Assembly (NCBI GenBank): GCA_016212665.1 | Contig: JACREZ010000009.1 | Coordinates: forward strand, 62,001-126,000 | Length of the DNA stretch: 64,000 nt | Reading direction: 5' to 3' | From: Ignavibacteriota bacterium | GTDB taxonomy: Bacteria > Bacteroidota > Ignavibacteria > UBA10030 > SZUA-254 | Part shown: in pieces, positions 38 to 30,364 of the stretch | Position numbering within the stretch: the stretch's first letter is position 1 | Layout of the letters: every line of letters begins with the position of its first letter | Program-made: the position numbers and the translations under genes | Notes under the pieces: model-generated | Seen by the model: the letters and a program-made list of their open reading frames with translations, nothing else | The model's database searches: none | What the model was told of the DNA's origin: nothing

Positions 38-108
38 TCATAATCACTAATCACCATTCACTAATCACTAATGACAAATGACCATTGACCAATGACTATT
101 GACAAAGC
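38..108. repeat. degenerate short-period filler repeat
   Basis: A run of near-repeats of the type AATCACTAATC / AATGACAAATGACCATTGAC fills the DNA directly 3' of the phoH stop codon. Closely related sequence recurs near 25.0 kb and 27.1 kb, again touching the stop codon of a minus-strand gene. It has no coding potential that I can see. Confidence 0.6.
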
Positions 109-112
109 ACCC

Positions 113-6080: not shown

Positions 6081-6710
6081 TCACCCCACCCACTTCACCG
6101 CCGGGTCGCTCCACATTCCTCTCCCTTCGGCGCCGACTGCGGCTACGCGGAACCAGTATTTCTTTCCGCTCTCAAGATTTCCTATCGTGAATTTTGCTTT
6201 CGGGGCTATGCCTCCGTGTGTCCATGTCGAGGGTCCTATCGGGTCGGGAGAATATTCCAGCGCATACGACTTTGCCCCCTTGATGCTCTTCCAACGCAAG
6301 TCAACTTCCCCTTCGTTTGTCCCCTGCGAAACACGAACATCCAACACTTGCGGCATCGGCTTCGTAAGTTTCACCGTCGAACGAACTGACATACCGGAAC
6401 TAAGGATGATTACTTCATCTCCATTACTGACATTTTCCACATAACTTGCTAACAAACTTAATGATTCATCCAAGGCTTTCTCTTTTTCTTCCGCCTCGGC
6501 TGCAAGTTGAGCCACTGTTTGTCGTGCCTGTTCCAAATTGCTCAGAACTAATTTCAGGTCATCCTGTTTTTGTTGAACTGTGTTCAAATCAGGATTCGGA
6601 TTTGGAAAATTTGCATTTCCTGTCATCTTTGCCAGAACGTTCGACGAGAACTCTACTTTCTCCTGCGGCTGCATCGTCGCAAGTCCTAATTTAATTTTTG
6701 ATTTTGCCAT
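6081..6710 (-). CDS. coiled-coil plus fibronectin type III domain protein
   Basis: 209 residues from an ATG with a strong AAGGAG 5 nt upstream. The N-terminus has no signal peptide: MAKSKIKLGLATMQP, then KMTGNANFPNPNPDL. A coiled coil covers about 55-100 (LSNLEQARQTVAQLAAEAEEK). The C-terminal 90 residues form an FN3 sandwich: VDLRWKSIKGAKSYALEYS, TIGNLESGKKYWFRVAAVG and a final GRGMWSDPAVKWVG. FN3 domains of this sort bind proteins or carbohydrates; the function here is unknown. The notable context is the 21-bp repeat array starting 103 nt upstream of the start codon. A protein with a similar helix-plus-sandwich plan and ending (at 29564) also follows such an array. Confidence 0.8.
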   Translation of the reverse strand: MAKSKIKLGLATMQPQEKVEFSSNVLAKMTGNANFPNPNPDLNTVQQKQDDLKLVLSNLEQARQTVAQLAAEAEEKEKALDESLSLLASYVENVSNGDEVIILSSGMSVRSTVKLTKPMPQVLDVRVSQGTNEGEVDLRWKSIKGAKSYALEYSPDPIGPSTWTHGGIAPKAKFTIGNLESGKKYWFRVAAVGAEGRGMWSDPAVKWVG

Positions 6711-6784: not shown

Positions 6785-6813
6785 TTATTGTACTTATTAT
6801 TACGTAAAACATG

Positions 6814-7043
6814 CTTGGTTATTCAGAAAACATCCTTAGTTTTTCTAAAAACATACTTGGTTTTTCCGAAATCATACTTGGTTTTTCTAAAAACATACTT
6901 GGTTTTTCTAAAATCATCCTTGGTTTTTCCGAAAACATGCTTGGTTTTTCTATAAACATACTTGGTTTTTCTAAAAACATCCTTAGTTTTTCCGAAAACA
7001 TCCTTGGTTTTTCCGAAGTATGCTTTGTTTTTCCAAATTCTTG
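6814..7043. repeat. 21-bp tandem repeat array A (about 11 units)
   Basis: Ten consecutive units of consensus CTTGGTTTTTCTAAAAACAT plus one variable base start at 6814, 6835, 6856 and so on. The tenth unit is 20 nt long and a degenerate eleventh starts at 7023. Variation is concentrated at the CTA/CCG triplet and the last base, with a two-base block swap between two unit types that suggests exchange between units. Several frames are open because the unit is a multiple of three; on the FN3 gene strand one frame reads as SMFLEKP heptads. There are no unique spacers, so this is not CRISPR. Confidence 0.95.
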
Positions 7044-11661: not shown

Positions 11662-11707
11662 TAAACTGAAAACCGAAAACTGAAAACCGGAAACAGGAAA
11701 CCGAAAT
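11662..11707. repeat. degenerate filler repeat (CTGAAAACCGAAAA type)
   Basis: Near-repeats of AAACTGAAAACCGAAAACTG run right up to the nadA stop codon. It is a different unit from the AATGACC filler but has the same placement, touching the 3' end of a minus-strand gene. Confidence 0.55.
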
Positions 11708-26970: not shown

Positions 26971-27138
26971 AATTCAAAGTTAAAAATTAAAAATTTAAAA
27001 AAGTATTTGAGTATTTGAGTACAAAGTACAGAGTACTAAGCACAAACTCCATGAAGTAAAAATTCTACTATCAAATGACCAATGACCATTGACTAATGAC
27101 AAATGACTTTCAACAAAGGACAAAGTACCAAGTACAAA
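26971..27138. repeat. mixed filler repeats between pfkB-like and M28 genes
   Basis: This stretch contains AAAAATTAAAAATTTAAAA, then GTACAAAGTACAGAGTACTA, then AATGACCAATGACCATTGAC units, ending with CAAAGTACCAAGTACAAATC at the M28 stop codon. Part is identical to the mtnA-side repeat. Confidence 0.6.
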
Positions 27139-28877: not shown

Positions 28878-28980
28878 GGTGATTAGTGAGTAGTGAGTAG
28901 TGATTCGGGATTTGTGATTAGACCATCTTGATTTTAGGATTGATTAAATGGTATGATTTACTCACTACTCACAAATCACC
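28878..28980. repeat. 22-bp inverted repeat in filler DNA
   Basis: Arms at 28878-28899 and 28959-28980 are reverse complements with one mismatch (GGTGATTAGTGAGTAGTGAG and its partner). The unit TAGTGAG is also tandemly repeated. The rest of the gap 28828-29263 shows only a short CCGCCTCGGCGG palindrome near 29161 and nothing else recognisable. Confidence 0.6.
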
Positions 28981-29263
28981 ACTCACAAATAGAAAATATT
29001 TTCAATAAAACGCTTGCTTATTTCCAGAACTTTTCTAACATTAGCACCACGTAAAGGGAAGAACAAACTCCCAAGTTATTATCATCAAACAAGCCCGAAG
29101 TATTTCAGGGAAAACGGGCATCGTTCTTTGTCCAAAAATTGTACAAAAAGATGATATTTCCGCCTCGGCGGAAGATAGACTTGCGAGCAGTCCACAAGCC
29201 TACCAATTTCAACAATCATCAAAAATAGCCCATTTTGGGTAAAATAACCTTCAGTGAGCCGCT

Positions 29264-29486
29264 CACTGAGCTTCGGAAATCGCTCACTGAACTTCGGAAA
29301 CCGTTCACTGAACTTCGGAAATGGTTCACTGAACTTAGGAAATGGTTCACTGAACTTCGGAAATGGTTCACTGAGTTTCGGAAACCGTTCACTGAATTAC
29401 GGAAATCATTCACTGATATTGGGAAACCACTCACTGAGTATCGCCGGAGTGTTCCTGAAGTACGGAAGTACCTCACTGAATGGTAG
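29264..29486. repeat. 21-bp tandem repeat array B (about 10.5 units)
   Basis: Units of consensus CACTGAACTTCGGAAATGGT plus T begin at 29264, 29285, 29306 and on to 29474. The central units are nearly identical and the edges decay (unit 9 and 10 are divergent). The unit is a multiple of three, so several frames are open, for example TELRKWF heptads on the plus strand. It ends 78 nt before the likely start of the downstream gene. It shares the TTCGGAAA core with array A read on the gene strand. Confidence 0.95.
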
Positions 29487-29563
29487 AATAGATTTATTGT
29501 CATTGTGAAAGAGTTTTTTTTTAATCAACAATATTCTCAACACATACAGAAGGAATGACAGTC

Positions 29564-30220
29564 ATGGATAATATTCCAGAACCCGATAATGAGTTTGATC
29601 ATTTTCAATCAAACTTTCGGGCGAAAACCGAAGCCGACCACGCAAAGTTCGGCTTAACAGATACCAACAAATCAAACATGCAAACATTGAGCGATGCATG
29701 GCAGGCAAAATACGCCGCCGATATCGTCGCACAAAATGCGGCGCGGGCGGCGAAGCAGGAAAAAAATACTGCACGACAGGCGCTCGAAGCGGAACTCAGG
29801 CGTGACATCAAGAAAGTGTATGCAAGCGAAACCGTTACCAACGATGACCTCGCCGCATTAAACTTACCACAACGCGACACAGTCAAAACCCGCGCGAACC
29901 GCCCATCCACCATCCCGATTGTGCGGATTGATTTTTCTCTTCACCTCCAACACAAAGTATATTTCGTTGACTCGGCAACACCGTTGAAGAAAAAGAAACC
30001 GGATAAATATCGCGGGGTGCAAGTCTATATGAAGATTGGCGGACCGCCGCCTGCCGATTACCGTGAATGTTTCCACGCGGGATTCGATACAAACTCTCCC
30101 TATTTCTACTCGTTCCAACAGTCCGATTTAGGAAAGACGGTCTATTATATTTTGTTCTGGGAAAACACCCGCGGCGAAATGGGAAACCCGAGCGAAATTT
30201 ATAGCGCGGTGGTGGGATGA
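29564..30220 (+). CDS. helical plus beta-sandwich protein of unknown function
   Basis: 218 residues from the ATG at 29564, which has AAGGA 9 nt upstream; an ATG three codons earlier is too close to it. No signal peptide. The N-terminal half is helical and Ala/charge rich (YAADIVAQNAARAAKQEKNT, about 50-70). The C-terminal half looks like an FN3-type or related sandwich: VQVYMKIGGPPPADYRECFH, KTVYYILFWENTRGEMGNPS and a terminal YSAVVG, similar in placement to the end of the FN3 protein at 6081-6710. Both follow a 21-bp array, so they may be one diverged gene-plus-array module. Function unknown. Confidence 0.75.
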   Translation: MDNIPEPDNEFDHFQSNFRAKTEADHAKFGLTDTNKSNMQTLSDAWQAKYAADIVAQNAARAAKQEKNTARQALEAELRRDIKKVYASETVTNDDLAALNLPQRDTVKTRANRPSTIPIVRIDFSLHLQHKVYFVDSATPLKKKKPDKYRGVQVYMKIGGPPPADYRECFHAGFDTNSPYFYSFQQSDLGKTVYYILFWENTRGEMGNPSEIYSAVVG

Positions 30221-30245: not shown

Positions 30246-30269
30246 ACTGTCGGGACGGAAGTCCCGACA
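30246..30269 (+). terminator. 10-bp perfect hairpin with GGAA loop
   Basis: CTGTCGGGAC and GTCCCGACAG enclose a GGAA tetraloop, 25 nt after the stop of the array-linked gene. The plus-strand side is followed by an AT-rich run without a clean T-tract; the minus-strand side has TTTTT. It probably ends transcription or protects the 3' end. Confidence 0.55.
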
Positions 30270-30364
30270 GGACAATCAATTTATTTCATACAAGCACAAT
30301 ATTTTTTTACTGTACATTATTATCGGTTTACTAACATATATTTAAATTCGAAAGGAGAAACAAA

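Follow-up and report, generated by a model that had tools for sequence, protein, structure and literature searches.

Arrays of about ten non-coding 21-base repeats nearly always precede genes for small two-domain proteins in the bacteria examined

In the bacteria that we examined, a little-known family of small two-domain proteins is encoded by genes that almost always follow an array of some ten non-coding repeats of 21 bases each. Two such loci lie in the stretch of DNA analysed here (64,000 nucleotides, hereafter the window), and in both of them an array of strict 21-bp period stands close upstream of its gene. A scan of the whole 64-kb window at lags of 12-42 bp (threshold 0.62) detected lags 21 and 42 alone, confined to the two arrays, A and B. 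The features discussed below are the following.

6081..6710, minus strand: gene A, 209 aa, with a helical N-terminal half (by profile match to B) and an fn3 domain at residues 122-204
6806..7013, minus strand: array A, which lies upstream of gene A and has about 10 units of 21 bp in tandem
29264..29484 (outer limits about 29260-29484), plus strand: array B, about 10.5 tandem 21-bp units, non-coding, with degenerate edge units
29485..29563, plus strand: gap between array B and gene B, AT-rich, with a T9 run and an AGAAGGA ribosome-binding site (read directly)
29564..30220 (start 29555 or 29564), plus strand: gene B, with a helical N-terminal part and a C-terminal fn3 domain
30247..30270, plus strand: perfect GC-rich hairpin CTGTCGGGAC-GGAA-GTCCCGACAG, directly after gene B (read directly)

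Tandem Repeats Finder (TRF) placed array A at 6806-7013 with period 21 and 9.9 copies. For array B it gave 29263-29437, period 21, 8.3 copies and 86% matches, and under looser scoring 29260-29480 with 10.5 copies, which bears out the first-pass annotation of a 21-bp period and about 10.5 units. The motif that the same annotation found common to both arrays, TTCGGAAA followed by CC, turned out to be a weak likeness: the stretch reads TTCGGAAAAACC in array A and TTCGGAAACC in some units of array B, and the two consensus units match at 11 of 21 positions, the chance level. Gene B encodes 221 aa if started at 29555 and 218 aa if started at 29564, the latter having, in our reading, the better spacing to the ribosome-binding site, and it is present in three copies in its own genome. 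The intergenic region with array B is common to gene B and a divergent peptidase gene; for the SPFH gene beside gene B, a search at E 1e-60 of the 14 other genomes with these protein families gave nothing. The hairpin after gene B has a GGAA loop and, in the sense direction, no T run behind it. TRF also reported separate short repeats of period 7 or 14 in the window (41-111, 11663-11706, 27072-27108, 28879-28921 and 28962-28990), two of the five inside the intergenic region preceding array B.

The two proteins share their architecture, as had been proposed from the letters alone: a helical N-terminal half followed by a beta-sandwich, which is an fn3 domain by sequence in A and by fold in B. 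In protein A, Pfam assigns fn3 (PF00041) to residues 122-204 (E 9e-8, 32.6 bits against a gathering score of 25); a single-sequence structure model of this protein was too poor (pLDDT 43) and was discarded. Protein B has no convincing Pfam match and no fn3 row at E up to 1. Its AlphaFold2 model, built on an alignment of 16 sequences, is of good local quality (mean pLDDT 86.9, pTM 0.50) and predicts three long helices (8-24, 33-55 and 61-87), one short helix and then eight strands. Compared with fn3 chains, residues 111-218 of the model gave a best Z of 12.0 (rmsd 2.2, 96 residues aligned), and the C-terminal half of protein B is thus predicted to be an fn3 sandwich. The fold check, which could have revealed unrelated folds, instead joined the two proteins through this common domain and through a profile match of the families B and A over 186 columns (probability 92.7, E 4e-7). 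Families B and D match over 193 columns (probability 97.6, E 3e-12), and because the profile comparison joins B to A as well as to D, the three families look like one diverged superfamily. Family E resembles them only at its fn3-like end. No relation to family B was detected for family C (237-241 aa), which by eye is helical and has a proline-rich tail. Searches of Pfam, NCBIfam, PHROGs and PDB sequences found no known family covering the N-terminal part, and among five proteins searched against defence families the one match was weak (PDC-S26, E 0.006, to the D1 protein).

To the gene-side count we admitted 49 loci: 16 in the window's own genome (two of family A, three of B, three of C, seven of D and one of E), 19 in ten further genomes from the phylum, and 14 in MAG records that carry names (Prevotellaceae, Tannerella, Dysgonamonadaceae and two uncultured Umea bins). 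Dropped beforehand were four loci with less than 100 bp upstream (L084, L094, L095 and L100), six whose match was confined to the fn3 portion of A (L059-L064), two weak matches within other proteins of the own genome (L006 and L007) and repeat hits to the same places in genome G212; a D-family gene of genome G002, found later, is outside the 49. For each locus we recorded the best self-match lag, from 10 to 63, within at most 700 bp on each side of the gene. Upstream, the best lag was 21, 42 or 63 in 44 of the 49 loci, against 3 of 48 downstream, where one locus had too little sequence. When the six genes discovered through their arrays (A1, B1, C1, D1, D2 and E1) were removed, the upstream count was 39 of 43, and a match of at least 0.60 at lag 21 or 42 was found upstream of 38 of the 49. 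The five misses were D2 and D4 of the own genome, G309a, G090 and the Prevotellaceae locus L093, at which the top alternative lag reached merely 0.45-0.52; in G090 it was lag 41 at 0.52, with lags 21 and 42 at 0.50-0.51. D2 and D4, two of the 16 own genes, have their array 3' of the gene, and upstream arrays are weak at C2, D6, D7, G009, G309b and G299. Among 46 other window genes of at least 150 aa, which served as control, the only one with an upstream match of at least 0.6 at lag 21 or 42 was the divergent peptidase gene that shares array B, and in one further gene lag 21 came top at just 0.45. Family C, unrelated to B, has arrays at 3 of its 3 genes.

The association was also counted from the array side. 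Pattern searches of the own genome for a GGAA-like core every 21 bp yielded at least 21 non-coding arrays, an array split between contigs C15 and C19 being taken as one and coding repeats at contig C38 and probably C37 being excluded. Ten of the 21 arrays listed have a gene of families A-E within about 600 bp (that of the D2 array on its 3' side). Since the C and E genes were first noticed through arrays, we also counted families A, B and D alone, and 6 of the 21 arrays listed lie near such a gene; by our own arithmetic, about 0.2 of 21 would be expected. The preference of arrays for such genes, an expectation of the first-pass annotation, therefore holds in the own genome, and together with the profile match and the common fn3 domain it upholds the idea of array plus gene as a repeated, diverged module. 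Against a simple one-module reading stand the 11 of the 21 listed own arrays that are solo, with no recognised family gene, and the array-bearing unrelated family C. Behind some solo arrays are what we take to be genes for a secreted protein, rplM and a YjbQ-like gene. A search of 12 own-genome solo-array loci for pseudogene remains gave nothing beyond 26-residue hits with E about 0.03.

In 14 relatives the same pattern matched in G002, G014, G012 and G007, the matches in G012 and G007 looking coding. The G002 array, found by this gene-blind search, has 146 bp downstream the D-family gene mentioned above, which is 49% identical to D3 of the own genome. Three arrays of G014, two of them at contig ends, have no recognised partner gene, so that of the four arrays fetched in relatives 3 lack one; G009, whose D gene is accompanied by a weak array, gave no match to the GGAA-type pattern. 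Contig breaks fall in or near 21-bp arrays at the end of own contig C15, the starts of C19, C20 and C37, the end of C34 and near the end of C25, and in G014 near the ends of C29 and C48; long arrays may thus be collapsed and under-counted in these assemblies. Two 21-bp repeats look coding, at L067 2782-3100 (own contig C38) and L066 1-423 (own contig C37, at the contig start); the former would encode what we read as a coiled coil with NAEL heptads and a helix-turn-helix-like end, and the latter is similar. A recurrent neighbour gene was rejected: the neighbour genes of 32 loci, module genes aside, formed only one group of six loci, one of four and one of three, the first of which shares what looks to us like a common C-terminal sorting domain. 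The Tannerella loci L091 and L087 have one downstream gene in common, placed alike in both at about 756 to 1955 bp past the gene start.

Across loci the arrays consist of roughly 6-24 tandem 21-bp units and usually end 40-125 bp before the start codon; among the 37 arrays of at least 100 bp that we analysed further, the distance from array end to ATG was 40-122 bp in 28. The best TRF period of these 37 was 21 (16 arrays), 42 (8), 63 (8) or 84 (5), and never 20, 22, 41 or 43, the periods allowed being 20-22, 41-43, 63 and 84; this is partly by construction, since the arrays were picked by lag 21 or 42. A less biased measure comes from all 49 loci, where non-multiples of 21 never exceeded 0.52 as best upstream lag. 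The pooled self-match was 0.74 at lag 21 and 0.22-0.23 at lags 10-11, and a hidden period of 7 or 14 bp within the units was rejected, lags 7 and 14 being at background. The arrays carry no coding signal: divergence is flat over codon positions (1 of 37 arrays at p < 0.05), and no frame is consistently open.

Folding energy was below that of column-permuted versions at z < -1.645 in 17 of 37 arrays per strand. Both strands behaved alike in this, which points to DNA and not to one RNA strand. Intrinsic curvature, computed with a dinucleotide wedge model, did not distinguish the arrays from column-permuted versions (3 of 37 at p < 0.05; means 1.18 and 1.13), and palindromes in the consensus unit reached p < 0.05 in 3 of the 21 arrays scored. 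A known RNA family was likewise rejected, as Rfam found four tRNAs alone in nine sources totalling 113 kb, and so was a CRISPR array: there are no unique spacers, and the units are contiguous with 0-8% indels. Between array and gene, promoter-like motifs were mildly enriched (6 of 37, with 2.6 expected).

The unit sequence itself is nearly free. GGAA or TTCC occurs in 9 of 10 unit consensuses of the own genome, where 1.2 are expected; four of these ten arrays (C1, C3, D1 and E1) had been found by searching for GGAA. Once more edge units are included, the count drops to 7 of 10, and conservation of the core exceeds that of the remaining positions only mildly. Of nine consensuses from G212, 5 have these words, as does 1 of 9 in the Prevotellaceae, Tannerella and Dysgonamonadaceae set, in which the commonest four-letter word is CAAA (8 of 9), conserved no better than other positions of the unit. 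No core motif is common to all arrays; a binder specific to a lineage may exist. Three arrays that otherwise differ begin on the 5' side with the same 25 bp, perhaps a conserved leader (L040 2892-2916, L047 2750-2774 and L145 4910-4934). Unit pairs of the own genome (26 of 45 listed) match at 8-16 of 21 positions, mostly chance level, and there is no one common repeat. The units of near-identical proteins match at 11 of 21 (L083/L086, proteins 89% identical), 12 of 21 (L085/L086, 90%; L089/L092, 93%) and 13 of 21 (L089/L090, 95%), the 95th and 99th percentiles of shuffles being 12 and 13 of 21; the exception is L090/L092, with proteins 92% identical and units matching at 16 of 21. For the named B pairs, protein and unit similarity correlate at 0.49; within G212 the value is 0.22 and within the own genome 0.12. 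The unit sequence is only loosely tied to protein identity.

The exceptional pair shows how an array changes. L090 and L092 are paralogues in one genome, and the 347 bp upstream of the array are 88.8% identical. Each consensus unit occurs about 13 times in its array, yet the two units disagree at 5 of 21 positions: the array has changed as a block, in concerted fashion, and roughly twice as fast as its flank. Over the 37 arrays TRF counted about 101 indel positions and 1477 substitutions. We infer that the 21-bp unit length is under selection, because other strong periods would be expected at some loci if indels were fixed as readily as substitutions and 0 of 49 loci show one; the argument rests on the counting by TRF and on few genomes.

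The families are patchy across the phylum and often multi-copy where present. Own genome included, family A was found in 8 of 395 genomes at E 1e-8 (matches in G294, G313 and G347 covering the fn3 part only), family B in 2 of 395 at E 1e-10 and family D in 6 of 395 at E 1e-6. The own genome holds at least seven copies of D (7 of 18 candidates scored), and G212 has nine distinct family places. Paralogues often cease to match at an array edge (L039/L041, L070/L072, window A/L049 and L045/L146) or at a gene edge (D1/D3 and D2/D4), and in own B2 and B3 the match spans array and gene (1168 bp, 71%). Arrays of gene-bearing families are also found alone, and array and gene families can separate. The earlier suggestion that the module is mobile has so far found no support: we noticed no transposase at the loci and found no clean empty site, a comparison of G009 with G014 giving the right flank alone, and families A and B had no tblastn match at E 1e-3 in plasmid and phage collections and none confirmed in viral contigs. 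The flanks of the D module in G009 (L111, about 724-859 and 2184-2324) match many places in G014 and are dispersed repeats.

Searches of openly accessible full texts turned up no account of such genes paired with 21-bp arrays. One of the three nearest counterparts is BrickBuilt, a minisatellite or MITE of P. gingivalis, which the available part of its description (PMC4596501) presents as contiguous, spacerless, short tandem repeats in intergenic places with many copies per genome, as here, and with leader and tail segments, which we count as a likeness; that part also mentions small inverted-repeat ends and gives a 23-nt unit of one sequence, whereas our units are 21 bp long, mostly differ from locus to locus and have a recurring gene family beside them. 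The TAACTGA heptamers of Beggiatoaceae, cyanobacteria and some Bacteroidetes, according to the portion of PMC4679880 at hand, are intergenic direct repeats with a proposed regulatory role, comparable to ours, and in one genome lie mostly just upstream of start codons; they are one fixed 7-bp word, and the 21-bp arrays have neither a fixed word nor a 7- or 14-bp period. In the SPADE survey, tandem heptamers are the most abundant DNA repeats of prokaryotic intergenic regions and are unexplained (PMC6344855, in the excerpt available). This intergenic periodicity in many prokaryotes recalls the present case; its period is 7 and that excerpt describes no gene association, whereas the arrays here have period 21 and a gene-family partner. 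Type III toxin-antitoxin systems (ToxIN, CptIN and TenpIN; PMC8860590) are a further counterpart. Like our loci, such systems have tandem repeats directly upstream of one small-protein gene. The present loci differ in unit length, unit sequence and the fn3 domain, in the lack of a terminator found at most of them and in units largely uncoupled from protein identity. The array-gene pair fits none of these known kinds, a statement about kind and not about any shown function.

Our preferred reading, which we hold tentatively and with somewhat less than even confidence, is that the array is a DNA-level cis-element at the promoter, locked in length and helically phased. Twenty-one base pairs are two turns of the DNA helix. 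The recurrent locus has two parts, the non-coding array and then the gene for a protein of helical bundle and fn3 domain (A, B and D), and the array would form a row of putative docking sites exactly two helical turns apart, so that the binder would sit on one face of the DNA. Helical phasing would be the reason for the unit length, and the bound array would control or mark the promoter that follows. Renewal of the array by unequal exchange or slippage would let the unit sequence drift as a block with the unit length kept. In favour of this reading we count the gene-side counts with their control, the distance of the arrays from the ATG, the lack of a 7- or 14-bp sub-period and of a codon-position signal, the equal folding of both strands, the GGAA excess in the own genome and the gene-blind find in G002. 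Against it weigh the missing universal core, the curvature no higher than in permuted arrays, the 3' arrays of D2 and D4, the arrays with no recognised gene and the mild enrichment of promoter-like motifs. What the data establish is the association, the strict period, the upstream position, the lack of coding signal, the nearly free unit sequence, the concerted change in a recent duplicate and the architecture of proteins A and B.

A different possibility is that the arrays are a dispersed and perhaps MITE-like satellite that multiplies within the genome, does nothing for the gene and adjoins it through common permissive intergenic places or joint transfer. This seems to us unlikely, though it has points in its favour. 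Array families occur with and without the gene, paralogue homology often ends where array or gene ends, and BrickBuilt, in the part of PMC4596501 available, is a precedent of 23-nt tandem repeats at 19 intergenic places. Such hitch-hiking does not readily account for the same association recurring in distant genomes with unrelated units and nearly always on the 5' side, or for the other window genes lacking an array of their own; nor do the missing transposase and the absence of A and B from plasmid and phage collections favour it. An RNA like the antitoxins of type III systems fits poorly and appears improbable. The layout is the same, the tandem repeats immediately preceding a gene for some 210 aa (in those 44 of 49 loci), the array-gene gaps of own B2 and B3 contain hairpins that resemble terminators and have T runs, and about half of the arrays are highly self-complementary. 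Yet near-identical proteins go with unrelated or barely related units, even though L090/L092 and the correlation among the named B pairs depart from this, and a simple home-made scan found terminator-like sites in merely 3 of 37 gaps, with 1.4 expected from shuffles. No toxin family was matched: Pfam, NCBIfam and PADLOC scans showed no ToxN-like family, and the whole-protein fold lists were filled by fn3. The defence match, single and weak, and the two genes whose array lies 3' also speak against the toxin-antitoxin reading.

A contingency locus, in which slippage alters the number of units and switches expression of the protein (phase variation, which the first-pass annotation had raised as a possibility), strikes us as quite improbable. 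Block-wise change, as in L090/L092, implies that units are probably gained and lost frequently, but the arrays lie beside the gene and not within it, and changes by whole 21-bp units, which keep the helical phase, should switch little. Most improbable of all is that the arrays are translated, 21 bp being seven codons, into heptad-repeat peptides. In many arrays one frame or more is open, as chance would give for any period divisible by three, and by eye an ORF runs into the array at L096 and L097; the flat codon-position divergence, single-base indels inside arrays and 2 of 37 arrays with no open frame speak against it. A small share of our confidence goes to none of the readings named here.

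Beyond the phased cis-element, a broader view is possible, held with rather less than even confidence: the arrays could be a bacterial equivalent of satellite DNA that is repeatedly found with a partner gene, their function hanging on unit length and tandem repetition and hardly on sequence. Each copy would then bear its own fast-changing 'address', and the partner protein, a helical bundle with fn3 or an unrelated helical protein, would stay recognisable across scattered genomes of the phylum. Regulatory DNA is usually recognised through conserved sequence. What is kept here across distant genomes is length and position, with the sequence nearly free, and ordinary motif searches would miss such arrays. 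If the helical-phase reading is true, the arrays would be a natural test case for promoter control that tolerates sequence and depends on spacing, as well as a handle on a patchy family of fn3 proteins, and they may bear on the unexplained intergenic tandem repeats of many prokaryotes.
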